From the NCBI GenBank assembly GCA_022844545.1, contig JALHLN010000009.1, forward strand, positions 1 to 32,376: a stretch of DNA of 32,376 bases, in the 5' to 3' direction. The notes beneath the pieces were generated by a model. That model was not told the DNA's origin, searched no databases, and worked only from the letters and a program-made list of their open reading frames with translations. How positions within the stretch are numbered: position 1 is the first letter of the stretch; each line of letters starts with the position of its first letter. The stretch is from Burkholderiales bacterium (GTDB lineage: Bacteria > Pseudomonadota > Gammaproteobacteria > Burkholderiales > SG8-39). The position numbers and the translations under genes are program-made. Positions 1 through 18,413 of this stretch are shown piece by piece.

Positions 1-1025
1 TAGATCGCGCCGTTGTTGTGGAAGGCGCCGCCGCCCTCGTGGCGCCAGGCGCCGGTCACCGCGGCGATGCACAGCGCGGCGTGCATGTTGACCGCGCCGT
101 TGCGGTTGCGCGAGAAGCCGTAGCCGAGGCGGAAGTAGGTCTTCGGCGTGCGGCCCACCAGCCGCGCGAAGGCCTCGATCTCCGCCACCGGCACGCCGGT
201 GATCCGGGAGGCCCACTGCGGCGTCTTCGCCGCCAGGTGCGCTTCCAGTTCGCGCGGCGCGTCGGTGTAGCGCTCGAGGTAGTCGCGGTCGGCCATGCCC
301 TCGCGGAACAGCACGTGCATCACCGCGCAGGCGAAGGCGCCGTCGGTGCCCGGGCGCAGGATGATCGCCATGTCCGCGGCCTCGCTGGTCGCGTTGCGGT
401 AGACGTCGACGTGCACGATCTTCGCCCCGCGTTCCTTCCTCGCGCGCACCGCGTGGGTCATGACGTTGACCTGCGTGTGCACCGGATTCGTGCCCCAGAT
501 CACCACGCAGTCGGACTTCGCCATCTCGCGCGGGTCGGCGCCGGCGAGTTTCCCCGTCCCGGCGATGTACCCGTTCCAGGCCGGCGTCACGCAAATGGTG
601 CTGTACTGGCCGGAGTAGCGCTTCACGTTGCGCAGGCGGTGGATGCCGTCGCGCATCACCAGGCCCATGGTGCCGGCGTAGTAGTACGGCCAGACGGCCT
701 CCGGGCCGTGGCGGCGCTCGGCGGCGAGCAGGCCCTCGGCGGTAAGGTCGAGCGCATCGTCCCAGGACACCGGCTCGAAACTTCCCGACCCCTTCGGCCC
801 CTTGCGCCGCAGCGGCTGGCGCAACCGGTCCGGGTGATTGGCGCGCTCGGCGTAGCGCGCCACCTTGGCGCACACCACGCCGGCGGTGTAGCTGTTGTCC
901 CCGGCGCCGCGCACGCGGCCGATGGTGCGCGCATCGAGGCGCTCGATCTCCAGCGCGCAGGTCGAAGGGCAGTCGTGCGGGCAGACCGAGTAGCGCAGTT
1001 CGGGCGGCGCGGCGGGTGCGTTCAT
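1..1025 (-). CDS. Molybdopterin oxidoreductase (FdhF/nitrate reductase-like), N-terminal part, runs off left edge
   Basis: Open frame absent from the ORF track because its stop is outside the window. Reads MNAPAAPPELRYSVCPHDCPSTCALEIERLDARTIGRVRGAGDNSYTAGVVCAKVARYAERANHPDRL...WGTNPVHTQVNVMTHAVRARKERGAKIVHVD; N-terminal Fe-S cysteines and MGD-binding signatures. Confidence 0.9.
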   Translation of the reverse strand, partial: MNAPAAPPELRYSVCPHDCPSTCALEIERLDARTIGRVRGAGDNSYTAGVVCAKVARYAERANHPDRLRQPLRRKGPKGSGSFEPVSWDDALDLTAEGLLAAERRHGPEAVWPYYYAGTMGLVMRDGIHRLRNVKRYSGQYSTICVTPAWNGYIAGTGKLAGADPREMAKSDCVVIWGTNPVHTQVNVMTHAVRARKERGAKIVHVDVYRNATSEAADMAIILRPGTDGAFACAVMHVLFREGMADRDYLERYTDAPRELEAHLAAKTPQWASRITGVPVAEIEAFARLVGRTPKTYFRLGYGFSRNRNGAVNMHAALCIAAVTGAWRHEGGGAFHNNGAI

Positions 1026-1038
1026 GATGGACGCAATC

Positions 1039-1647
1039 TTACGCCCGCGCGGTCGGGCGGCCCGTGACTTCGGCGAACCAGCGGCCCAGGTTATTCAGCT
1101 CCGCGGGAATCGGCGTGCCGGTGTTCTTGCCCAGCAGCAGCCCGCATTGCGCGGTGATATCGGCGACGGTATAGCGCTCCCCCGCGATGAACGGCCGCGT
1201 GGCGAGTTCGCCATCCAGCCACGCCATGCGCGCCAGCGCCGTCTTCCGGGCGAGCTTGCCGGCCTCCGGGACCTGCTCGCGCTTGCCCGCCCAGAAGGGA
1301 GACAGGTGTACGAAGGCCTCCTGCAACGGCCGCGCGATCTCGAGCTCCATGCGGCGGTTCCACATTTCGACCAGCGCCCGTTCCAGCGGCGTCACGCCGA
1401 AGAGCGGCGGATTGGGATGCAGTTCCTCGAAGTAGCGGCAGATGGCCATCGACTCGGCGATGTGGGTGCCGTCATCCAGCTCCAGCACCGGCAAGGTGCC
1501 CATCGGGTTGATCTTCAGGAACGGCTCGCGCCGGTTCTCGCCGCCGGGCATGTCGACTTCGACGCGCGGAACCGTCAGCCCCTTCTCGGCGAGAAAGATG
1601 CGCACGCGGCGCGGATTGGTACCCGCCTTGAGGTCATAGAGTTTCAT
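1039..1647 (-). CDS. Glutathione S-transferase family protein
   Basis: MKLYDLKAGTNPRRVRIFLAEKGL...INPMGTLPVLELDDGTHIAESMAICRYFEE thioredoxin-fold GST N-domain. Confidence 0.9.
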   Translation of the reverse strand: MKLYDLKAGTNPRRVRIFLAEKGLTVPRVEVDMPGGENRREPFLKINPMGTLPVLELDDGTHIAESMAICRYFEELHPNPPLFGVTPLERALVEMWNRRMELEIARPLQEAFVHLSPFWAGKREQVPEAGKLARKTALARMAWLDGELATRPFIAGERYTVADITAQCGLLLGKNTGTPIPAELNNLGRWFAEVTGRPTARA

Positions 1648-1662
1648 CGTTGGTCTCCCTGG

Positions 1663-2508
1663 TTACTTGTCGAAATCCCTGGCGTCATGCCGTTCGGGCA
1701 ACTGGCTGTCGGGCTGGCCCCAGGTGCGGTTGACCATGCGGCCCCGGCGCACCGCCGGGCGTTTCGCGATCCGGTCGGTCCAGCGCAGCACGTTGGTGTA
1801 GGTCTGCACCTGGAGAAATTCCCCGGCTTCGTAGAGCTGGCCCTTGGCCAGCGCGCCGTACCAGGGCCACACCGCCATGTCGGCGATGGTGTATTCGTCG
1901 CCCGCCAGCCAGGGGCTCTCGGCCAGGCGCCGGTCGAGCACGTCCATCTGCCGCTTCACTTCCATGGCGAAGCGATCGATCGGGTATTGCAGCTTGGCCG
2001 GCGCATAGGCGTAGAAGTGACCGAAGCCGCCGCCGAGGAACGGCGCGCTGCCCATCTGCCAGAACAGCCACGACAGGCACTCGGCGCGCGCCGCGCCCGT
2101 GGCGGGCAGGAAGGCGCCGAACTTCTCCGCCAGGTACACCAGGATGGCGCCCGATTCGAACACGCGCACCGGCGCGGGTCCGCTGCGGTCGAGCAGCGCC
2201 GGGATCTTGGAGTTCGGGTTCACCGCCACGAAGCCGCTGCTGAACTGCTCGCCCTCCTGGATGCGGATGAGCCAGGCGTCGTACTCCGCGCCCGCATGGC
2301 CCAGGGCCAGCAGCTCCTCCAGCATCACCGTGACTTTCACGCCATTGGGCGTGCCGAGCGAGTACAGCTGCAGCGGGTGGCGGCCCACCGGCAGGTCCTT
2401 CTCGTGCGTGGCGCCGGCGATGGGACGGTTGATGTTGGCGAAACGCCCGCCGCTGGGCTTGTCCCAGGTCCAGACGGCGGGCGGGGTGTATTCGGCCTCT
2501 GCAGTCAT
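1663..2508 (-). CDS. yghU: YghU-like glutathione-dependent disulfide-bond oxidoreductase
   Basis: YTPPAVWTWDKPSGGRFANINRPIAGATHEKDLPVGRHPLQLYSLGTPNGVKVTVMLEEL is YghU-type. Confidence 0.88.
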   Translation of the reverse strand: MTAEAEYTPPAVWTWDKPSGGRFANINRPIAGATHEKDLPVGRHPLQLYSLGTPNGVKVTVMLEELLALGHAGAEYDAWLIRIQEGEQFSSGFVAVNPNSKIPALLDRSGPAPVRVFESGAILVYLAEKFGAFLPATGAARAECLSWLFWQMGSAPFLGGGFGHFYAYAPAKLQYPIDRFAMEVKRQMDVLDRRLAESPWLAGDEYTIADMAVWPWYGALAKGQLYEAGEFLQVQTYTNVLRWTDRIAKRPAVRRGRMVNRTWGQPDSQLPERHDARDFDK

Positions 2509-2520
2509 GTCCCGGCTCGC

Positions 2521-3153
2521 CTACAAGCTGAATGCCGGGCGCCGGGCCAGGGCCTCGCGCCAGCGCCGCAGCTGCGCATGCTGCTCGCCGGGCTTGACGC
2601 GCACCACGCGCGCGAAGTCCACCGCCACCGCGGCGGTGATGTCGGCCACGCTGAACTGATCGGCGGCGACGAACTCGCGCCCGGCCAGGCGCTGGTCGAG
2701 CGTGTCCATGAAATGCTGCAGCCGGGCCAGCCCGCGCTGCGCCAGTTCCGGAATCTGGGCGTATCCCTCAGGCCCGGGCAGCGCGCGACCCGCCATGGCC
2801 GGCGCGCTGTTGCGCAGCGCCTCGGCAACGGCCATCAGCCCTTCGAACTCGACGCGCCAGTTCCAGCTCGCGATCTCGGCCCTGGCCAGCGGCGTGCTGC
2901 CCAGCAGCGCAGGTTGCGGAAAGCGCGCCTCCAGGTAGGCGGCGATGGCCGCGTTGTCGGTGAGCACCGGACCCTCGTCGGTACGCAGCGCCGGCACGGT
3001 GCATTGCGGGTTGACGGCCCGGAAAGCTTCGCTGAATTGCTCACCCGCCCGCAGGTCGACCTGCACCGTGTCGTGGGCCACGCCCTTCTCGGCCAGCAGG
3101 ATGCGGGCGCGGCGCGGGCTGGGGGCGGTGCTGCAGTCGTACAGGGTGATCAT
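2521..3153 (-). CDS. Glutathione S-transferase family protein
   Basis: MITLYDCSTAPSPRRARILLAEKGVAHDTVQVDL...VNPQCTVPALRTDEGPVLTDNAAIAAYLE. Confidence 0.9.
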   Translation of the reverse strand: MITLYDCSTAPSPRRARILLAEKGVAHDTVQVDLRAGEQFSEAFRAVNPQCTVPALRTDEGPVLTDNAAIAAYLEARFPQPALLGSTPLARAEIASWNWRVEFEGLMAVAEALRNSAPAMAGRALPGPEGYAQIPELAQRGLARLQHFMDTLDQRLAGREFVAADQFSVADITAAVAVDFARVVRVKPGEQHAQLRRWREALARRPAFSL

Positions 3154-6838: not shown

Positions 6839-6840
6839 CC

Positions 6841-6936
6841 ATGAAGACCCGCATCACTGAACTGTCCGGCGTCCAGCACCCCATCATCCAGGGCGGCATG
6901 CACTACGTCGGCTTTGCCGAGCTCGCGGCGGCCTGA
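6841..6936 (+). pseudogene. Truncated 5' end of nitronate monooxygenase (2-nitropropane dioxygenase) gene
   Basis: MKTRITELSGVQHPIIQGGMHYVGFAELAAA* matches the family N-terminus and stops after 31 codons where V/S-NAGGLG is expected. Confidence 0.8.
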
Positions 6937-6947
6937 GAACCGGCCCG

Positions 6948-6969
6948 GATGTAACCGATCGGTTACATC
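6948..6969. promoter_or_regulatory. 22-bp perfect palindrome GATGTAACCGATCGGTTACATC
   Basis: Exact self-reverse-complement; core related to the palindrome at 18390. Confidence 0.85.
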
Positions 6970-7390
6970 GCAGCCTCAGCGCGGCAGCGCCGCGAAGGCC
7001 TCCACCTCCACCAGGAAGTCCGGGTGCGACAGGCGGCGCACCTCCACCGTGGTGCTGGTGGGCAGCGCGGCGCCGAAGTAGCGCTGCCGCACTTCGACAT
7101 GGCGGAAGAATTCGTCGATGTCGGTCACATAGGTGGTGGTGCGCGCGAGGTCGGCCAGCGTCGCGCCGGCCGCCTCCAGCGCCACGCGCAGGTTCTCGCC
7201 CACCTGCGCGATCTGCGCGCCCATGTCCCCCTTGCCGACGATGTTGCCGGCCGCGTCACGCGCCAGCAGCCCGGAGACGAACACCAGCCGCGCGTCCTCC
7301 AGCGTCACCACCGGCGAGTACAGCAGGTGCCCGCCGACGACGCGCCATGCCGTGCAGCGCCTCGACGGTGAGGCCCCCGGTGTGCGGCGA
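6960..7390. repeat. Direct-repeat copy 1 (431 bp) of 14526..15086, with a 130-bp internal deletion relative to copy 2
   Basis: 6960-7346 aligns to 14526-14912 (offset 7566); 7347-7390 aligns to 15043-15086 (offset 7696); three substitutions seen by eye (7006, 7042, 7376). Confidence 0.93.
6976..7311 (-). pseudogene. 5'-truncated RidA-family gene (copy 1)
   Basis: Same as ridA at 14542..14955 but lacks about the first 14 codons; remaining start is an internal GTG. Confidence 0.8.
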
Positions 7391-7750
7391 TGAGGTGCAA
7401 GCGCGCTCGCGGCACCAGCGCGGCCAGGCGCTGCATGAATTCCTGCGCCGACATCACGATGTGCGTGGTACCGTCACGCCAGGGGCTCTTGATTTCGAGC
7501 ACGACGTTGCCCGCACCATCGCGTCTGAGCCGCTCGTTGGCGATCGCCAGGTGGTGACGGTGCGGCACAAGCGTTCGAGTTCCTTGCGCTGATGCTCGCC
7601 GCAGCGCACCCCGGCATGCAGGGTGAAGCCGTGCGCATCGGCGCACAGGCCCGCCGTGGCTTTCTCGTCCCGGCCCGGCACGGTTCGCAGGCTCGGCACC
7701 TGCAGTCCGGCACGCGGCCCCAGCGCAGCCGCTCCTTGCCGCGTGGATTC
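7391..7750 (-). pseudogene. IS91-family (Y2-type) transposase remnant, frameshifted and truncated
   Basis: CADAHGFTLHAGVRCGEHQRKELERLCR in one frame continues as LAIANERLRRDGAGNVVLEIKSPWRDGTTHIVMSAQEFMQRLAALVPRARLHLI in another; IS91 C-terminal signature (K-S/T-P-W-R-D-G-T-T-H, L-A-A-L-V-P-x-P/A-R-L-H-L-I); upstream limit approximate. Confidence 0.82.
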
Positions 7751-7845
7751 TTCGGTCTCTGCGTCGGCCCGTCGGGACGGATGTCGACGCACGCTGACCG
7801 CCACACGCAAGTGTGGGCCGCGCCGGGAAGCGTGCCGGGGGCCGA

Positions 7846-8835
7846 TCAGCCGAAGCGCACCACCGCGCGTCCGCGGATGCCGGCGGCGATGACCCTGTCG
7901 CAATAGTCCTTCAGTTCGGCGAACGGCATCTCGACGCAGATCGCGTCGAGGTGGCGGGGCCGCAGGTCGCCGCCGCGCGAAAGCCGCTTCCAGGCGTTGC
8001 GGCGCGCCGGCACCGGGTGGTTCGCATTGATGCCCGCGAGCGACACCGAGCGCAGGATGAAGGGATAGATCGAGCTGGTGAAGGTCTCGCCCGCCGCGTT
8101 GCCGAAGGCGCAAACCACGCCGCGCTGCTTCATGGTGCGCAGCAGGTCGTCCAGCGGCTTGCCGCCGACCGCATCGATGGCGCCCGCCCAGCGCTGCGGC
8201 TGCAACGGCGCATCACCGCCGGCGATGGCGTCGCGGCCGATGACCTCCGATGCGCCGAGGGACTTCAGGTACGCCGCCTCCGACGCCTTGCCGGTGCTCG
8301 CCACCACGGTGTAGCCCAGTCCCGCGAGCATGTCGATGGCGAAGCTCGAGCAGCCGCCGGTGGCGCCGGTCACCGCGATGGGACCCATCTCGGGGGTGAC
8401 GCCTCGCGCCACCAGTTCCTCGACGGCGAGCGCCGACGTATACGCGGCGAGGCCCAGGGCGACGGCGTCGAAGGCGTCGAACCCCGCGCCGAGGTGCCCG
8501 ACCCATGCCGCCGGCACGCGCACGTACTCGGCGTACGCGCCGTCGTGGCGGATGCCGAACTCCCTTCCCCCCTGCACAGTCACCGCGTCGCCTTCGCGGA
8601 AATCCGCCTGCGTCGAAGAAACGACGACGCCCGAGACCTCGACGCCCGGAACGCAGGGAAAGCGCTTGACGACGTTACCCGCGCCGGTGACGGCGCGCGC
8701 ATCCTTGTAGTTGACCGCCGCGAACTGCGCGCGGATCACCACTTCTCCGGGGTCGAGATCGTCCAGCGTCTGCGAGACTACGCGGCTGACACGCCGGCCG
8801 TCTTCCTGGTACAGCCTGACAGCGTTGAATTTCAT
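7846..8835 (-). CDS. YhdH/acrylyl-CoA reductase-like MDR oxidoreductase
   Basis: MKFNAVRLYQEDGRRVSRVVSQTLDDLDPGEVVIRAQFAAVNYKDARAVTGAGNVVKRFPCVPGVEVSGVV; GPIAVTGATGGCSSFAIDMLAGLGYTVVASTGK. Confidence 0.9.
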   Translation of the reverse strand: MKFNAVRLYQEDGRRVSRVVSQTLDDLDPGEVVIRAQFAAVNYKDARAVTGAGNVVKRFPCVPGVEVSGVVVSSTQADFREGDAVTVQGGREFGIRHDGAYAEYVRVPAAWVGHLGAGFDAFDAVALGLAAYTSALAVEELVARGVTPEMGPIAVTGATGGCSSFAIDMLAGLGYTVVASTGKASEAAYLKSLGASEVIGRDAIAGGDAPLQPQRWAGAIDAVGGKPLDDLLRTMKQRGVVCAFGNAAGETFTSSIYPFILRSVSLAGINANHPVPARRNAWKRLSRGGDLRPRHLDAICVEMPFAELKDYCDRVIAAGIRGRAVVRFG

Positions 8836-10028
8836 CGCACGGCTCCCGAACTGAACAGTGCGTCGATCTCCTGCGGCGCGAAGCCGAACCCGGCCAGCAC
8901 CTCGCGGCTGTGCTCGCCGATCATCGGCGGCGGCAGGTGCACGCGGGACTGCGCGTCGCGATCGCCGAGGGCCGCACCGACGGTGCGCACGCGGCCGGCC
9001 TTCGGATGCCGCATCTCGACGATGGCGCCGTTGTGCGCGAGTTGCGGCGACGCGAGCACCGCGTCGTACCCGGCGATCGGGCCGCAGATGACGTCCGCGG
9101 CTTCGAGCGCCGCCTGCCATTCGGCGGTGGACTTCGCTGCGAGCAGGCGCGAGAGTTCCTGCATCAGCTTGCCGCGGTTGGCGACACGCAGCGGGCTGGT
9201 GGCGAACTCGGGTCGCGCGGCGAGGCCCTCCTCGCCCAGCACCTCGCACAGCGCGCTCCAGCGGTCCTCGTGGTACGCGGCAATCATGATCCAGCCGTCG
9301 CGCGTCGGGTACGCCTCGTTGGGCGCGGAGTAGGGCGCGGCGCTGCCGCTGCGCGCCGGCAGCTCGCCGGAGGAGAGGTACGAGGCAATCGCCGACTGCT
9401 GCAGCATCAGCGCGCTGTTGTAGAGACTCATGTCGAGGTGCTGCCCGCGGCCCGTGGCATCGCGCACGCGCAGGGCCGCCAGCACCGCGGTGGCCGCGAG
9501 GAAGGCCGTCACCAGGTCGGCGGCGGGAATCTGCAGCTTCATCGGCGGCGAGCCTTCCGCGCCGACCTGGCTCATCAATCCGGAAACGGCCTGGACGATG
9601 CCGTCCACGCCTGGCTTGTCGCGCCAGGGACCGTCCTGACCGTAGGCCGACACCGAGCAGAACACCAGCCGCGGGAATTTCGCGGACAGCGCGGCATAGC
9701 CCACGCCGAGCTTGTCCATGACGCCAGGGCGGAAGCTCTCCAGCACCACGTCGGCGGCCGCCGCCATGCGCTCCGCCACCGCGCGCGCCTCGGGCTTCTT
9801 CAGGTCGAGCACCAGCGAGCGCTTGTTGCGATTGAAACTCATCGAGACCACCGACTCGCCCTCCTGCCACGGCGGGCCGAGCTTGCGGCCGATGTCGCCG
9901 CCGGGCGCCTCGATCTTGATCACTTCCGCGCCGAGGTCTCCCAGCAGCATGCCGCACGCCGGCCCCGCGCCGACCTGCGAGAAGTCGAGTACCGTGATGT
10001 TGGCGAGCGCCGCGTTGATGGAGACCAT
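8832..10028 (-). CDS. CaiB/BaiF (class III) CoA-transferase
   Basis: ITVLDFSQVGAGPACGMLLGDLGAEVIKIEAPGGD; NRNKRSLVLDLKKPEARAVAERMAAAADVVLESFRPGVMDKLGVGY. Confidence 0.93.
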   Translation of the reverse strand: MVSINAALANITVLDFSQVGAGPACGMLLGDLGAEVIKIEAPGGDIGRKLGPPWQEGESVVSMSFNRNKRSLVLDLKKPEARAVAERMAAAADVVLESFRPGVMDKLGVGYAALSAKFPRLVFCSVSAYGQDGPWRDKPGVDGIVQAVSGLMSQVGAEGSPPMKLQIPAADLVTAFLAATAVLAALRVRDATGRGQHLDMSLYNSALMLQQSAIASYLSSGELPARSGSAAPYSAPNEAYPTRDGWIMIAAYHEDRWSALCEVLGEEGLAARPEFATSPLRVANRGKLMQELSRLLAAKSTAEWQAALEAADVICGPIAGYDAVLASPQLAHNGAIVEMRHPKAGRVRTVGAALGDRDAQSRVHLPPPMIGEHSREVLAGFGFAPQEIDALFSSGAVR

Positions 10029-10036
10029 GCGCGCCG

Positions 10037-11017
10037 CTACTCCAGCTTGAGGCCGATGTCGGCGATGGATTTCTGCCACCGCGCGAGGTCGCGCTTCATC
10101 ACTTCGGTCATCTGCTCGGGGCCGAGGTAGCTGACCTCGAAACCCTGTGCGGTGAGCCGCTCACGCGTCTCCGGGAAGGCGAGCGCGCGCTCAACCGCGG
10201 CGGAGAGGCGCGCAACGATCTCGCGGGGCACGCCCGCGGGTGCGAGGATCGAATACCACAGCGGCACCTCGAACCCGGGGAGCGCGGCCTCGGCGATGGT
10301 CGGCACCGTGGGCATTGCGGGGGAGCGCCTCGGTGTCGTCACGCCCAGCGCGCGCAGCTTGCCGGCCTTGACGTGCTGCTCGAGCGAGGCGAGGGTGCCG
10401 ATCGCCGTCTGCACCTGCCCACCCAGCAGGTCGGCGATCGCCGGGCCGGTGCCCTTGTAGGCGATGTGCGTGACCTTCACGCCGGCGGCGTGGTTGAACA
10501 CCTCGTAGGCGATGTGCTGCGGCGTGCCGTTGCCGGGCGTGCTGTGGTTCAGCGCGCCCGGGTTCGATTTGGCTAGCGCAATCAATTCCTTGACGTTCTG
10601 CGCCGGCACCGAGGGGTGCACCGCGAGCACCATCGGCACCGAGGCGGCGAGCGCCACCGGCGCGAAGTCCTTCTCGATGTCGAACGGCAGCTTGGCGTAC
10701 AGCCAAGGGTTGATGGTCACCTGGTTGGAGGCGATGAGGATGGTGTAACCGTCGGCCGGGGACTTCGCCGCCGCGTCAGTGCCGATGTTGCCGCCGGCGC
10801 CCGCGCGGTTGTCGATGACGACGTTCTGGCCGAGGAACTCGCCCATTTTCGGTGCGAGCGCGCGCGCGAGGATGTCGTTGCCGCCGCCCGGCGGGAAGGG
10901 CACGATGAAGCGCACGGGCTTCTCCGGGAACCTCTGCTGCGCATGGGCGATAGTCGCGTTCGAGGCGGCGAAGAGCGTGGTGCAGGCGATGGCGAGCGTC
11001 GCGGCGATCCGGTTCAT
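10037..11017 (-). CDS. Bug-family (tripartite tricarboxylate transporter) substrate-binding protein
   Basis: Signal peptide, then FPEKPVRFIVPFPPGGGNDILARALAPKMGEFLGQNVVIDNRAGAGGNIGTDAAAKSPADGYTILI. Confidence 0.93.
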   Translation of the reverse strand: MNRIAATLAIACTTLFAASNATIAHAQQRFPEKPVRFIVPFPPGGGNDILARALAPKMGEFLGQNVVIDNRAGAGGNIGTDAAAKSPADGYTILIASNQVTINPWLYAKLPFDIEKDFAPVALAASVPMVLAVHPSVPAQNVKELIALAKSNPGALNHSTPGNGTPQHIAYEVFNHAAGVKVTHIAYKGTGPAIADLLGGQVQTAIGTLASLEQHVKAGKLRALGVTTPRRSPAMPTVPTIAEAALPGFEVPLWYSILAPAGVPREIVARLSAAVERALAFPETRERLTAQGFEVSYLGPEQMTEVMKRDLARWQKSIADIGLKLE

Positions 11018-11131
11018 GCGTCCTCCTGGGTTGACGGTACGACAGTGTCGCCCAGCCGCGGGCCGCGGGGCAACCGTGGTTTCGCGGTCTCGATCTGGCA
11101 GAATCGGCCCTCGGCACCCGCGGACGACACC

Positions 11132-12370
11132 ATGGACATCAAGCCTCCGGCGCGCATTGCGCCGATTCTGGAGCAGATCGAGCGCTTCCACGCCGCCGAA
11201 GTGCGTCCGCGCGAGGACAAGCTGCGGCACCGGCTGGAGAACCACCGCGAGTACCTCGACGCCGACGGCCGGCTGCATCCCGAGGTGCAGGCGGCGCGGC
11301 GCGAGATCATGCGCGCCGCCGGGCGCGAGGGCATCTTCTCGCTGCATCTGCCGCAGGAGATCGGCGGCGGGGGGCTCACCCGCCACGAGATGTTTTTCGT
11401 CGAGGAAAAGGTCTACAGCTACGGCGTCGGCCTCAACCCGGCGATGCTGGCGTGGACCGACGGCGCGACGCCGCGGCTGATGTTCTGCCGCGAAGAGCAG
11501 CGCGCGCGCTGGGTGGCGCCGCTCGTCGCGGGCGAGAAGACCTGCTTCAACGCGGTCACCGAGCCGGGCGCGGGGTCCAATCTCTTCGACATGAAGACCA
11601 CCGCGGTAAAGAAGGCCGAGCGCTGGGTGCTCAACGGCCACAAGTCGCTGATCACCAATCCCTTCGAGGCCGACGTCGGCCATGTGCTCGCGGTCACCGA
11701 CCCCGGCAAGGGGGCGCACAGTTTCACGTATTTTCAGTTCGACACCGCGGCGCACCTGGGCCGCGGCTTCCGCCATGGCCGCGTCTACAAGACCATGTTC
11801 GACGACGGCCTCACGGGCGAATTCTTCCTCGAGGACCTGGCGCTCGACGACGACGCCATCATCGGCGAGCGCGGCGGCGGCTTCCAGATCGCGATGGCGT
11901 CGATCAACTGGACGCGCATGCGCCGCGCCGGCATGTGCTCGGCGTGGTCGAAGTACCTGATCGATCGCACGGTCGAGCGGATGCGCTCGCGCGACGTGGG
12001 CGGGCGCCCGCTGGGCAGCAACCAGGGCGTGCAGTGGATGGTCGCCGACATGGTGCTCGACTGGGCGCAGGCGCGCGCGCTGTCGCTCGCCTGCCTGCAG
12101 GCTTTCGAGGCATCGGGCCCCTGGTGGGGGACGCGGCGCTCGCCCGAGGACATCCGCAACATCGCGCTGATCAAGCTCTCCAACGACGAGAGCTTCTTCC
12201 GCGTCGCGGACCGGGCGGTGCAGCTGCACGGCGGCGCGGGCATCATGAAGGACACCACCATCAACAAGCTGTTCCAGATCGCGCGCAACCTGCGCATCCC
12301 GGGCGGCACCGACGAAGTGCAGCGCACGACCATCGCGGAGACGCTCGGGCTGCGCTCGCGGGGCGAATGA
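11132..12370 (+). CDS. Acyl-CoA dehydrogenase family protein
   Basis: CFNAVTEPGAGSNLFDMKTTAVKKAERWVLNGHKSLITN; RVADRAVQLHGGAGIMKDTTINKLFQIARNLRIPGGTDEVQRTTIAETL. Confidence 0.92.
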   Translation: MDIKPPARIAPILEQIERFHAAEVRPREDKLRHRLENHREYLDADGRLHPEVQAARREIMRAAGREGIFSLHLPQEIGGGGLTRHEMFFVEEKVYSYGVGLNPAMLAWTDGATPRLMFCREEQRARWVAPLVAGEKTCFNAVTEPGAGSNLFDMKTTAVKKAERWVLNGHKSLITNPFEADVGHVLAVTDPGKGAHSFTYFQFDTAAHLGRGFRHGRVYKTMFDDGLTGEFFLEDLALDDDAIIGERGGGFQIAMASINWTRMRRAGMCSAWSKYLIDRTVERMRSRDVGGRPLGSNQGVQWMVADMVLDWAQARALSLACLQAFEASGPWWGTRRSPEDIRNIALIKLSNDESFFRVADRAVQLHGGAGIMKDTTINKLFQIARNLRIPGGTDEVQRTTIAETLGLRSRGE

Positions 12371-13683
12371 AGAAGATCCTGCTGGTCCTGCTCGACGGCA
12401 TCGCCGACCGCACGGACCCGGAGCTGGGCGGCCTCACCCCGCTGGAGGCGGCCGCCACGCCGAATCTCGACCGCATCGCCGCGCTGGGCGCCTCGGGAAT
12501 CCTTTATCCGCTCGACCCGGGCCTCGCGCCGCCCAGCGAGATTCCGCACTTCCACCTCTTCGGCTACGCCGACGAACCCTTCCCGGGGCGCGCCGTGTTC
12601 GAGGCGTTCGGCTGGGGCGTGACGCCGCCGCACGACACGGCACTCGCGCATCTGGGCATGAGGCACGTCACGCCGAGCGCGGATGGCTTCGCCATCACCG
12701 AGTGGTGGCCCGGCGACGAGGACGCGGACTGCAGGAAGCTGCTGGCCGATGTCGCGCGCTACCGCGCCGAGGGGATCGAGCTGGAAGTCATCGGCCTGGG
12801 CCGCTCGGATTCGCTGCTGACGATCCGCGGCGGCAGCGAGTACGTCACGGACTCCGATCCGTTCTTTCACACCGGACTTCCGGTAATGCGCGTCGACGCG
12901 CTGGAGGAGGCGCCCGATGCGGAACTCGCGGCGCGCACGGCGCGCGTGCTGAACGCCTATCTCCTGTGGTCGCACGGCGTCCTTGAGCGGCACCCGGTGA
13001 ACGCGGAGCGGCGTGCGCGCGGCGCGCCGCCGCTCAACATGCTGGTGACCAAGTGGCACGGGCGCCATCGCGGCCTGCCGCCTTTCGAGACGCGCGCCGG
13101 GCTCCCGGGGACGCTGATCGCCTCGACGCGCATGTACGCCGGCCTCGCGGCGGCGCTCGGCATGCGCTACGTGCAACTCGATGAGCGCATGGACGCGCCG
13201 GATCTCGAGGTGACGCAAAAGCTGGAGGCCGCCTTCGCCGCGTGCGACGCCGGCGCGGGATTCGTGCACCTGCACACCAAGACGGCGGACGAGGCGGCGC
13301 ATGCGCATTCGCCGCAACTCAAGCGAAGCGTCATCGCCGCCATCGACCGCGGGCTGTCCGCGCTGTGGCAGCGCCCGCGACTGCTGGAGGATTTCGTCGT
13401 CGCCGTGACGGCCGACCACACCACGCCGAGCCGCGGTCCGATGTTGCACTCCGGCGACTCGGTGCCGTTCGTGATGGCGGCGTCCACGGTGCGTATCGAT
13501 TCGGTGGAGGCCTTCGGCGAGCGCGCCGCGGCGGCTGGCGGACTGGGCACGCTGCGAGCCCGCGACGCGATGCCGCTGATGCTGAACGCCGCCAACCGGG
13601 TGCGCTTTCTCGGCGGCCGCGCGACGCCGAACCGCAGCCTCGGCCTGCCGCGCATCACGCCGCTGCGCGCCACAGATGACTGA
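12367..13683 (+). CDS. ApgM-like (archaeal-type) 2,3-bisphosphoglycerate-independent phosphoglycerate mutase family / alkaline-phosphatase-superfamily metalloenzyme
   Basis: KILLVLLDGIADRTDPELGGLTPLEAAATPNLDRIAALGASGILYPLDPGLAPPSEIPHFHLFGY; FVHLHTKTADEAAHA; VAVTADHTTPSRGPMLHSGDSVPFVM. Confidence 0.82.
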   Translation: MKKILLVLLDGIADRTDPELGGLTPLEAAATPNLDRIAALGASGILYPLDPGLAPPSEIPHFHLFGYADEPFPGRAVFEAFGWGVTPPHDTALAHLGMRHVTPSADGFAITEWWPGDEDADCRKLLADVARYRAEGIELEVIGLGRSDSLLTIRGGSEYVTDSDPFFHTGLPVMRVDALEEAPDAELAARTARVLNAYLLWSHGVLERHPVNAERRARGAPPLNMLVTKWHGRHRGLPPFETRAGLPGTLIASTRMYAGLAAALGMRYVQLDERMDAPDLEVTQKLEAAFAACDAGAGFVHLHTKTADEAAHAHSPQLKRSVIAAIDRGLSALWQRPRLLEDFVVAVTADHTTPSRGPMLHSGDSVPFVMAASTVRIDSVEAFGERAAAAGGLGTLRARDAMPLMLNAANRVRFLGGRATPNRSLGLPRITPLRATDD

Positions 13684-14263
13684 GACGCCCGAAAGGGTGC
13701 GCTACGCGGTGGTCCATGGGCGTTTCCAGCCCTTCCACCTCGATCACCTCGCGTACTGCCGGCTTGCGCTCGAGCGCGCCGAGCTGCTGGTGGTGGGAAT
13801 CACCAACTTCGATCCCGCGCTCGCCGAGGTCGAGTCCACCAGCCCGCACCGCCACCAGGCGGCGGCCAATCCATTCAGCTACTGGGAGCGCACGCTGATG
13901 ATCCGCGACGCGCTGCTGGAGGACGGCGTGCCGGGCGCGCGCTTCACGATCGTCGCGCTGCCGGTGCACCATCCGGAGCGCTGGTCGCACTACGTTCCGA
14001 CCGATCCCGCGATTTCCGTGCATGTGCTGCGCGTGTTCTCGTCGTGGGAGGAAGAGAAGGCGCGGCGGCTCGCCGCGGCCGGCATGCGCGTCGAGGCCGT
14101 GCGCGGGCAGCCCAAGCGCGTTTCCGCGACCGAGGTGCGGGCGCGCCTCGCGCAGGGCGCCGGCTGGCAGGAACTCGTACCCCCGGCGGTACGGGAGTGG
14201 CTGCCAAGATTCAGCGCACAGGCGCGGCTGCGCCGGCGGCTCGAGGCGGAGCCGCAGAGCTAG
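13676..14263 (+). CDS. NadM-like nucleotidyltransferase (nicotinamide-nucleotide adenylyltransferase family)
   Basis: VVHGRFQPFHLDHLAYCRLALERAELLVVGI nucleotidylyltransferase motif, C-terminal KRVSATEVRARLAQG; overlaps the preceding gene by 8 bp. Confidence 0.8.
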   Translation: MTETPERVRYAVVHGRFQPFHLDHLAYCRLALERAELLVVGITNFDPALAEVESTSPHRHQAAANPFSYWERTLMIRDALLEDGVPGARFTIVALPVHHPERWSHYVPTDPAISVHVLRVFSSWEEEKARRLAAAGMRVEAVRGQPKRVSATEVRARLAQGAGWQELVPPAVREWLPRFSAQARLRRRLEAEPQS

Positions 14264-14524
14264 CGCGCCGGGTATCGGACTGCGGCGCGTATGCGCTGAG
14301 CCAGGCCAGCACGGCGCCCAGGTCCGCCACGCGCCGCAGCGCGCGGGTGTCCCCAGGGCCGACCTTGATTGTGTGGCCGCCGAGCGCATGGACCGCGTCA
14401 AAGCGGTCTTCATTGGTCCGGTCGTCGCCCACGAACACCGGCCGACGGCCGGCAAACGGCGCTTGCGCCATCAGTTTGCGGATGGCGCGGCCCTTGTCGA
14501 GGCCGTGGGGCTTGAGCTCGCAGT
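14211..14524 (-). pseudogene. otsB: 3' fragment of trehalose-6-phosphate phosphatase (OtsB-like)
   Basis: ELKPHGLDKGRAIRKLMAQAPFAGRRPVFVGDDRTNEDRFDAVHALGGHTIKVGPGDTRA; open frame meets the repeat boundary at 14526 without the N-terminal region. Confidence 0.8.
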
Positions 14525-14525
14525 C

Positions 14526-15086
14526 CGGTTACATCGCAGCCTCAGCGCGGCAGCGCCGCGAAGGCCTCCACTTCCACCAGGAAGTCCGGGTGCGACAGGC
14601 GGCGCACTTCCACCGTGGTGCTGGTGGGCAGCGCGGCGCCGAAGTAGCGCTGCCGCACTTCGACATGGCGGAAGAATTCGTCGATGTCGGTCACATAGGT
14701 GGTGGTGCGCGCGAGGTCGGCCAGCGTCGCGCCGGCCGCCTCCAGCGCCACGCGCAGGTTCTCGCCCACCTGCGCGATCTGCGCGCCCATGTCCCCCTTG
14801 CCGACGATGTTGCCGGCCGCGTCACGCGCCAGCAGCCCGGAGACGAACACCAGCCGCGCGTCCTCCAGCGTCACCACCGGCGAGTACAGCAGGTGCCCGC
14901 CGACGACGCGCCGCGACAGCCCCTCCGGATGCAGGTTCTGCCGCCGGAACGTCACCGCCGCCCCCACACCTCGGGGTTGACCAGGTGCGGCGGGCGCTCG
15001 CCGCGCAGCGCCTGCAGGATCTGGTCCGCCGCCGACAGCGCCATGCCGTGCAGCGCCTCGACGGTGAGGCCGCCGGTGTGCGGCGA
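14526..15086. repeat. Direct-repeat copy 2 (full-length form) of 6960..7390
   Basis: See copy 1; contains the 130-bp segment missing from copy 1. Confidence 0.93.
14542..14955 (-). CDS. RidA-family protein
   Basis: VTFRRQNLHPEGLSRRVVGGHLLYSPVVTLEDARLVFVSGLLARDAAGNIVGKGDMGAQIAQVGENLRVALEAAGATLADLARTTTYVTD; GTG start overlaps upstream stop (GTGA). Confidence 0.9.
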   Translation of the reverse strand: MTFRRQNLHPEGLSRRVVGGHLLYSPVVTLEDARLVFVSGLLARDAAGNIVGKGDMGAQIAQVGENLRVALEAAGATLADLARTTTYVTDIDEFFRHVEVRQRYFGAALPTSTTVEVRRLSHPDFLVEVEAFAALPR

Positions 15087-15941
15087 CAGGATCACGTTCT
15101 CCAGGCCCGCCAGCGGGCTCTCGGCGGAGAACGGCTCCTCCTCGTAGACATCGAGCGAGGCCCCGGCGATGCGCTTCGCGCGCAGCGCCTCGGCCAGCGC
15201 CTTCGCCTGCACGATCGGGCCGCGCGCGGTGTTGATGAGGATGGCGTGCGGCTGCATCGCGGCCAGTTCCGCCGCCCCGACCATGCCCCGGGTCTCCTCG
15301 TTCAACTCGGCGTGGATGGACACGTAGTCCGATTCGCGCCAGATGCGCCCCAGGTCGGTGACCCGCTCGGCGCCGGCGCGCGCGAACTTCTCCGCCGGCA
15401 CATGGGGATCGCAGGCGAGCACGCGCATGCGGAAGGCCTGCGTGCAGCAGCGCACCACTTCCTCGCCGATGTTGCCCAGGCCGACCACGCCCAGGGTCTT
15501 GGCGCGCAGTTCGGTGCGCCGGTAGTCCTTCTGCGCCGGCCAGCCCTGGCCGGCGTGCGTCAGGCGGTTGAGCGGCAGCAGGTTCTTGGCGAAGGCGAGC
15601 ATCACCGCGATGGTGTGCTCGGCGACCGGCACGACGCCGAAGGCGGGGTTGTTCACCACCGCCACGCCGGCGGCGGTGGCGGCGGCGAGGTCGATGGCGT
15701 CGGTGCCGCGGCCGGAGCTGCTGATGATCTTCAGCCTGGCGGCGCCCGCAATGGCCTCGGCGCGCAGCTTGTTGGGATAACGCACGAACACCCCGTGCGC
15801 CTCCCGCAGCGCATCGCGCACGCTTTCGGGGGTCGGCTTCTCGAGCACCTCCACCGTCGCCCCGGCGCGCAGGCGCGCGTCACCTTCGGGGTGGTACATG
15901 TTGCCGAGCAGGACCACCCGGAACTGCGAAACTGCCGCCAT
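14952..15941 (-). CDS. D-isomer-specific 2-hydroxyacid dehydrogenase
   Basis: TLGVVGLGNIGEEVVRCCTQAF NAD-binding; HAILINTARGPIVQAKALAEALRAKRIAGASLDVYEEEPF; ILSPHTGGLTVEA. Confidence 0.93.
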   Translation of the reverse strand: MAAVSQFRVVLLGNMYHPEGDARLRAGATVEVLEKPTPESVRDALREAHGVFVRYPNKLRAEAIAGAARLKIISSSGRGTDAIDLAAATAAGVAVVNNPAFGVVPVAEHTIAVMLAFAKNLLPLNRLTHAGQGWPAQKDYRRTELRAKTLGVVGLGNIGEEVVRCCTQAFRMRVLACDPHVPAEKFARAGAERVTDLGRIWRESDYVSIHAELNEETRGMVGAAELAAMQPHAILINTARGPIVQAKALAEALRAKRIAGASLDVYEEEPFSAESPLAGLENVILSPHTGGLTVEALHGMALSAADQILQALRGERPPHLVNPEVWGRR

Positions 15942-16033
15942 GCGAACGCTCCATTGGGATTAGGCTTGCCGGACTATCCCCTGCCCCAGCGGGGATGACA
16001 AGACTTGTTCCGAAACCAAGGGAGAACCCAGAC

Positions 16034-16723
16034 GTGAGCACGCAGCCGGACCCGAAGCACATGATCGCCGAATACCGCATGCTCTCCACCGCCAATGTGT
16101 CCGACGGCCTCGACCGCCTCGGCATCAAGGGCTGCCCGCACGGCATCGGCCCGTTGTGGGATGCCTGCGCCAAGATCGTCGGCCCCGCCGCGACGCTGAA
16201 GCTGGTGCCCGTCGGCCAGGCCACCGAGTCCCCGGTGCTGGGCACGCTGGAAGCGATCAAGCTCGGCAAGCCGGGCGACGTGCTGGTCATCGACCAGGCC
16301 GGGCGCATGGACGTCAACAGCTACGGCGGCGTCGCCGGCTTCACCACCCGGCACCTGGGCCTCGCGGGCTGCGTCATCGACGGCGTGACGCGCGACATCG
16401 ACGAGTACAAGCAGTTGAACCTGCCGGTGTTCGGCAAGGGCTTCATCCAGCAGTCCATCCGCAACCGCTGCGCCTGCGCCGGCTACGGCATCGAGGTGCA
16501 GCTGGGCGGGGTGCCGGTCAAGCCCGGCGACCTCATCATGGCCGACGAAAACGGCGTCTGCGTGGTGCCCAGGGACAAGATGGCCGAGGTGCTGGAGTTC
16601 GCCAAGCTCTTCAAGTCCATCGAGGACAGCGTCATCGAGGCGGTGCGCGGGGGCATGGACCCGGTGACGGCGCACGATCGCGTGCGCTACGACATGATGA
16701 CCGCGGCGGGGTACAAGCCCTGA
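16034..16723 (+). CDS. RraA-like protein (4-hydroxy-4-methyl-2-oxoglutarate aldolase/RraA superfamily), paralog 1
   Basis: GCVIDGVTRDIDEYKQLNLPVFGKG; PGDLIMADENGVCVVPRDK; GTG start with upstream purine-rich RBS; alternative ATG at 15995. Confidence 0.87.
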   Translation: MSTQPDPKHMIAEYRMLSTANVSDGLDRLGIKGCPHGIGPLWDACAKIVGPAATLKLVPVGQATESPVLGTLEAIKLGKPGDVLVIDQAGRMDVNSYGGVAGFTTRHLGLAGCVIDGVTRDIDEYKQLNLPVFGKGFIQQSIRNRCACAGYGIEVQLGGVPVKPGDLIMADENGVCVVPRDKMAEVLEFAKLFKSIEDSVIEAVRGGMDPVTAHDRVRYDMMTAAGYKP

Positions 16724-16739
16724 ACCGAGGGGACAGGCC

Positions 16740-17420
16740 ATGAACTACGCGCTGGCGATGCAGGGCCTGTCCATCTGCGACCTGTCGGACGCCTGCGACG
16801 CGCTGGGTATCGTCCCCGCCACCAGCGGCGCGATCAAGGCCGTGTACCCGGGCTGCGCGCCGGTGTGCGGGCCGGTCGCCACCTGCGCCATGTCGCCCGC
16901 CGGCGGCATCGAGATCGTCATCGGCACCATCGAGCTGATGGAAAGCGCCGCGCCCGGATCGATCCTGCTCATCGACGCCCACGACCACCCCGAACAGAAC
17001 ACCATCGGCTCGCTGGTCAGCGTGGTGGCGGTGCAGCGGCGCCTGGGCGGCGCCATCATCGACGGCAGCGTGCGCGACGTGCAGGGCTGCCGCGAACTCG
17101 CCTTCCCGGTCTATGCGCGCGGCACCGTGGTGCATTCGGTGCGTGGCCGCATGGCCATCGACAGCATCAACGCGCCAGTCGCGCTCGGCGGCAAGGCGGT
17201 CGCCCCGGGCGACATCGGGGCCGCGGACGAGAACGGCGCCATCGTGTTTCCCGCGGCGCGGGCGAAGGAGATCTTCGAACTGGCCTGGCGCGCGATGGCG
17301 CTGGAAAAGAAACTGTTCCAGCAGATCCGGCACGGCGGCGACGCCATCGCGCTGCACAAGGCAATGAAGTACGACCTTTCCATGAAGGACCAGCTGGACG
17401 ACAAGGAGTTGCTCAAATGA
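16740..17420 (+). CDS. RraA-like protein, paralog 2
   Basis: GAIIDGSVRDVQGCRELAFPVYARG; PGDIGAADENGAIVFPAARAKEI. Confidence 0.87.
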   Translation: MNYALAMQGLSICDLSDACDALGIVPATSGAIKAVYPGCAPVCGPVATCAMSPAGGIEIVIGTIELMESAAPGSILLIDAHDHPEQNTIGSLVSVVAVQRRLGGAIIDGSVRDVQGCRELAFPVYARGTVVHSVRGRMAIDSINAPVALGGKAVAPGDIGAADENGAIVFPAARAKEIFELAWRAMALEKKLFQQIRHGGDAIALHKAMKYDLSMKDQLDDKELLK

Positions 17421-18389: not shown

Positions 18390-18413
18390 AAATGTTACCG
18401 ATCGGTAACATTT
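18390..18413. promoter_or_regulatory. 24-bp perfect palindrome AAATGTTACCGATCGGTAACATTT followed by TT
   Basis: Exact self-reverse-complement by base-by-base check; operator and/or terminator candidate. Confidence 0.8.

Follow-up and report, generated by a model that had tools for sequence, protein, structure and literature searches.

A duplicated ridA segment joined to an IS91-family remnant: probably a rearrangement scar at a REP-like palindrome and not an IS91 capture

One contig of a Burkholderiales genome sets a truncated copy of a ridA-dehydrogenase locus directly against the remains of an IS91-family transposase. Did the transposon bring the copy there? A first reading, made from the sequence alone, proposed that an IS91-like event had mobilised or captured it. 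We examined the window, which is the whole 32,376-nucleotide stretch (contig C9 of assembly GCA_022844545.1; the host genome, G000, is a fragmented assembly of 3.25 Mb in 346 contigs, 85.6% complete), together with its near relatives, which are metagenome-assembled genomes labelled Burkholderiales or Betaproteobacteria. The locus is probably a rearrangement scar, left by duplication, truncation and a later cut at a REP-like palindrome, and not the product of IS91 capture.

The duplicated segment and its joints

Positions 6960–7390 hold, on the reverse strand, an incomplete duplicate of ridA together with the 3' end of a 2-hydroxyacid dehydrogenase gene; Pfam recognises a RidA/L-PSP domain in the open reading frame at 6976–7311. 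The sequence-only reading described this segment as a near-identical copy of part of 14526–15086 with three substitutions, and the alignment agrees, adding an internal deletion. Bases 6960–7341 correspond to 14526–14907 and bases 7342–7390 to 15038–15086; the intervening 130 bp of the other locus (14908–15037) are missing, and the deletion is flanked by GCGCC repeats, a 5-bp microhomology. Just 3 of 431 bases differ (C/T twice in the first 90 bases, and C/G near 7376), and the segments share a 387-bp match at 99.5% identity, far beyond chance. The partner locus is complete: a full-length ridA (14542–14967, reverse strand; PF01042), syntenic with contig C56 of the relative G001, and a full-length D-2-hydroxyacid dehydrogenase (14952–15941, reverse strand; PF02826/PF00389). 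The two repeats lie in direct orientation on either side of 7391–14525, a stretch of 7.1 kb that holds other genes; all the junctions are sharp. Which segment is the copy and which the source appears mixed when judged by G001, whose base is found in the 6960 copy at two of the three differences and in the 14526 locus at one.

The copy's left breakpoint had been placed at 6960, which proves to be the axis of a perfect 22-bp palindrome, GATGTAACCGATCGGTTACATC (6948–6969, detected as a self-match). This palindrome is form A of a dispersed repeat. The shared sequence starts at 6960 because the 14526 locus lacks the other palindrome half; the real left joint lies between 6932 and 6948. Beyond it is a gene fragment of 31 residues followed by a stop (6841–6936, forward strand), identified from DNA homology and translation, which we take to be the 5' end of a nitronate monooxygenase gene, the name given in the earlier reading and one that fits general knowledge. 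This very short piece yielded no Pfam match; DNA homology over 6840–6932 is 80% to contig C72 of G004 and 77% to contig C92 of G001, and ends at 6932. A second sharp joint, at 14260–14535, involves the same palindrome motif. Here a surviving half-palindrome adjoining ridA, CGGTTACATC (14526–14535, forward strand), is joined to a 3' fragment of otsB (trehalose-phosphatase; 14260–14525, reverse strand), which is cut at 14525, covers positions 158–214 of the 235 in profile PF02358, and has a 71% DNA match to contig C181 of G004.

The same arrangement in distant genomes would have spoken for an ancestral order, as the earlier reading recognised; the four relatives examined closely (G001, G007, G006, and G002) all lack it. 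In G001, which is 96% identical over window positions 1–1052 and 92.7% over 14541–16746, ridA directly abuts the gene at 1–1052, with no palindrome and with the 13.5-kb segment absent. Homology with G007 breaks off within ridA, at the point equivalent to 14707; in G006 another neighbour stands beside the ridA-dehydrogenase region; and homology with G002 begins only within the dehydrogenase. Because partners and breaks differ among these four genomes, breaks recur at the flank of ridA.

Three further features were seen along the way. Beyond the point in G007 where homology breaks within ridA (contig C74; locus L062, about position 7936), the sequence runs into an acyl-CoA dehydrogenase-like gene. 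Three consecutive glutathione S-transferase genes at 1039–3153, an apparent operon, are absent between the flanking genes in G001. Near the contig end, 31309–31423 and 32108–32222 form a 115-bp direct repeat with 80% identity, possibly paralogous genes or repeated domains.

The IS91 remnant and the origin of the scar

That a decayed Y2/IS91 transposase starts at 7391 is borne out. The Pfam profile Y2_Tnp (PF04986) matches the translation of 7391–7838 (E 3.2e-7) and the open reading frame 7305–7646 (E 4.3e-8), both above the curated cut-off, and this frame does run through the join as had been noted. DNA identity over 7391–7726 to elements in genomes of the same family is 88% (G107) and 83% (G078). 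The end assigned earlier, 7750, is too short: a second matching piece, further upstream in the transposase, lies at about 7742–7826, so the remnant (7391–7826, reverse strand) extends to about 7826.

What survives is an internal, dead slice, since it spans only codons 284–341 in one reading frame and about 342–396 in another, against a 457-codon reference transposase. It has no open frame and no zinc-binding N-terminal domain, and is therefore not a complete transposase. The element in G078 offers a measure of what is missing: it is multicopy, its copies are nearly identical, and each is about 2.08 kb (L150, 3260–5336) with a 457-codon transposase. Position 7391 corresponds to about L150 3789–3791, which lies 186 bp short of the transposase stop and about 530 bp from the end of the element, and no match to the ends of the G078 element (oriIS or terIS) was found in the remnant. 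At the joint itself the two matches overlap by 2 bp: the one to the dehydrogenase extends as far as 7390, and the one to the IS starts at 7389. A single other Y2 transposase was found in the host genome, on contig C131 (399 aa, with a zinc-binding domain); it has no DNA match to 7391–7826. A scan of genome contigs with the fused reading frame found no relative, and tblastn of plasmids gave only distant IS91 matches, of about 37–41%.

Could an IS91-like rolling-circle event nevertheless have brought the ridA segment, with the element then decaying and losing its oriIS end? IS91 homology directly abuts the copy, and G078, a genome of the same family, has several nearly identical copies of a related element. 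In IS91 and ISCR elements, however, transfer proceeds from oriIS to terIS, the region in which the promoter of the transposase lies (PMC13393415); read-through would therefore carry DNA lying 5' of the transposase. The 5' side of the remnant is above 7840. The join lies inside the transposase on its 3' (oriIS) side, which is where the ridA copy is found, and no passenger DNA lies beyond a terIS. One-ended capture was rejected on this polarity and on the missing ends. The GAAC at 6937–6940, put forward as an IS91-type target, carries no weight, because about 450 bp separate it from the closest IS91 sequence and it adjoins no IS end; nor does any target tetranucleotide lie next to an oriIS end at this locus. 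Moreover, the IS piece is frameshifted and gapped, whereas the ridA copy differs from its partner at only 3 of 431 bases; this suggests that the element was already dead when the copy arose. We accordingly regard capture as very unlikely, and as judged from the sequence it is unlikely that the transposon piece as it stands made the scar. Its likeness to the IS91/ISCR family is confined to homology with the C-terminal part of a Y2/HUH transposase (PF04986); it is otherwise a dead fragment that shows no sign of having mobilised its neighbour. Improbable too is an assembly artefact, in which the contig would join real fragments at short repeats into a chimera. The assembly is fragmented, the palindrome has about 100 copies, and ridA occurs twice on one contig; yet three substitutions and a cleanly bounded 130-bp deletion separate the ridA copies, the ridA/IS91 joint has no long shared sequence, and GC is fairly even along the contig. 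A repeat of 20–22 bp is also shorter than the word lengths usual for final assemblies, which counts against an artefact.

Duplication, truncation and a later cut at the palindrome would account for the direct repeats, the deletion, the joints and the palindromes, all of which can be read directly from the contig. In the history that we infer, a stretch comprising palindrome, ridA and dehydrogenase, and ending in the REP-like palindrome, would have been duplicated, giving what are now the complete locus (14526–15941) and the truncated one (6948–7390). The truncated copy would have been joined to an already degraded IS91 piece by end-joining or short-homology recombination, and would have lost 130 bp between the two GCGCC repeats; both the 7390/7391 joint and the deletion look like end-joining or slippage. 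Later, a cut near the axis of the palindrome would have left the complete locus attached to a broken otsB. The full palindrome stands beside the 6960 copy and only a half beside the complete locus, so the duplication probably came first and the cut later, an order that depends on a single half-palindrome. Two routes would fit: a tandem duplication whose first copy then suffered a deletion, or a circle carrying the ridA-dehydrogenase piece that integrated in Campbell fashion, by homologous recombination. The palindrome may favour breakage and joining; breaks may also fall near palindromes because these lie between operons, where synteny changes anyway. The scar is explicable by ordinary duplication, deletion, and decay; it is in itself routine genome decay. 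It serves as a warning that an IS fragment beside a duplication need not be its cause.

A dispersed palindrome at gene ends

The 18-bp core of form A, TGTAACCGATCGGTTACA, occurs in 79 exact copies in the host genome (about 5e-6 are expected from base composition) and in 111 copies with up to 3 mismatches; a reversed-core control in the same genome found none. Counts fall steeply among relatives: 11 exact copies and 49 with up to 3 mismatches in G007 (56% complete); 6 and 20 in G001; and 0–1 exact copies in other relatives. Core counts are 0–3 in other genomes of the genus and 0–3 in other family members, one of which has 6. Among 85,462 species genomes scanned, the core turned up on 29 contigs, of which 17 belong to G001 and G007; a metagenome-assembled genome of the Lysobacterales has 3, and one from the Betaproteobacteria has 2. 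The core is also present in one viral contig. Rfam gave no match on the window, and a 16-base core was absent from the literature searched, where sequences given in figures or supplements would escape. With form B, described below, the palindrome appears to constitute a lineage-specific family of about 95 perfect copies.

Form A sits mostly a short way behind stop codons. With gene context taken from a simple codon-usage predictor made for this analysis, 51 sites could be classified (3 could not): 28 convergent, 21 tandem, 1 divergent, and 1 inside a predicted gene. Palindrome-free gaps of 40–400 bp at the same loci divide into 7 convergent, 23 tandem, and 22 divergent. Where the site in a tandem gap could be decided, 19 of 20 lie nearer the upstream stop. 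Form A shares two features with REP elements: it is a palindrome of 21–65 bases repeated in extragenic space, and it prefers 3' ends and convergent gaps.

As RNA, the form A hairpin folds well (z about −3 for the forms in G000); it is followed by T, then C or T, then G-rich sequence; at least 4 T in 6 bases occur at 12 of 108 flanks. Because the U-tract is missing, the hairpin is not a standard terminator, and intrinsic termination was set aside. So was a role as terIS or oriIS: form B at C131:4503 lies inside the transposase frame, and the motif is genome-wide. A search for a RAYT flanked by repeats found one Y1_Tnp gene in each of three genomes, with no palindrome within the locus, and the RAYT link was dropped for want of palindrome copies beside the Y1 gene. 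That gene is the single RAYT-like Y1 transposase gene L218 (C70:4844–5173) in G000, with one counterpart in G001 and in G007.

How old are these sites? Three orthologous sites have a perfect palindrome in both G000 and a relative, and at two of them the intergenic flanks on either side have clearly diverged. Further sites and their flanks were compared over 2441 bases, at 13 of the 33 sites prepared; these were picked for being perfect in G000, and the comparison is biased toward that outcome. About eight of these comparisons pair a perfect G000 palindrome with a changed version at the same place in G001 and/or G007, one of which has matching changes on both arms (GTGACC/GGTCAC). At three compared sites nothing similar was seen in the relative. 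Because changed versions stand at the same places, many of the sites are old and not new insertions; 79 recent insertions are thereby rejected.

These comparisons bear on another account of the scar, in which a homing or transposing short palindrome settles behind genes and brings fragments along. The sharp differences in exact counts among close relatives (79, 11, 6, then 0–1) and the breaks at or beside the palindrome at 6948 and 14526 would fit such mobility. The changed versions in place at about eight sites speak against it, as do the absence of any conserved flanking sequence seen and the solitary Y1 gene with no palindrome adjacent; we consider it highly improbable. Form A is most plausibly a REP-like element of gene 3' ends that G000 has kept intact.

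Form B and the known repeats

A second palindrome, form B (TGTTACCGATCGGTAACA), lies at 18393–18410 in the window, 11 bases after a stop codon. It has 15 exact copies in the genome, and no hybrids of A and B were seen in G000. Form B also occurs in coding genes, where in those checked it is read in frame as MLPIGNI, with a TTA codon: MnmA (L235), GltX (L232), an FkbM methyltransferase (L240), and the C131 IS91 transposase (L242). In MnmA, the Leu of MLPIGNI replaces a Phe present in every aligned relative except G007, and the G001 site, ATGTTCCCGATTGGTAACATT, is two bases from form B. In GltX, MLPIGNI aligns without gaps to IFTREQF and IFTREEM of solved enzymes, and length is unchanged.

Perfect in this genome, both forms look eroded in its closest relatives; this suggests either a sequence-specific protein or a rewriting of near-matches. 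Tentatively, then, A and B might form a two-form system, A marking gene 3' ends and B lying also in genes, that answers to such a protein or process. A candidate, on which we would not insist, is a chromosome-organising or repair factor active in the lineage, with joints such as 14526 as by-products. No description of the palindrome was found in the literature searched, and it is conceivable, if rather doubtful, that the system is undescribed. The palindrome matters more than the scar, and the REP-like repeat deserves its own study: with about 95 perfect copies, and few outside one small uncultured Burkholderiales clade, it stays intact in one species and appears to be wearing away in the sister species. 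It would let one ask what keeps short palindromes at gene ends identical, whether a protein that binds them, a role in RNA or a process of copying.

DNA uptake sequences, too, are often inverted repeats at gene ends and are tolerated in coding genes. Those of Neisseria and the Pasteurellaceae resemble the present family as repeated motifs but number hundreds to thousands, against about 95 copies here, always as the full palindrome (PMC2346458, PMC3630211). HIP1 of cyanobacteria, GCGATCGC, is likewise a short, over-represented, clade-specific palindrome with a CGATCG centre (PMC4390886). HIP1 is 8 bp and occurs at high frequency, whereas the palindromes here are 18–22 bp in about 95 copies, and coding DNA contains almost no form A. 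Closest are the REP elements, repeated extragenic palindromes of 21–65 bases that are frequent between convergent genes and are known to be targeted by insertions, some of which fall at the axis of the palindrome (PMC1525189). Form A is similarly repeated, extragenic, and frequent in convergent gaps. It differs in its perfect symmetry and nearly invariant core of 18–20 bp, in having no conserved sequence seen outside the palindrome, and in a RAYT-like gene that lacks flanking copies; form B differs further in occurring also in coding genes.
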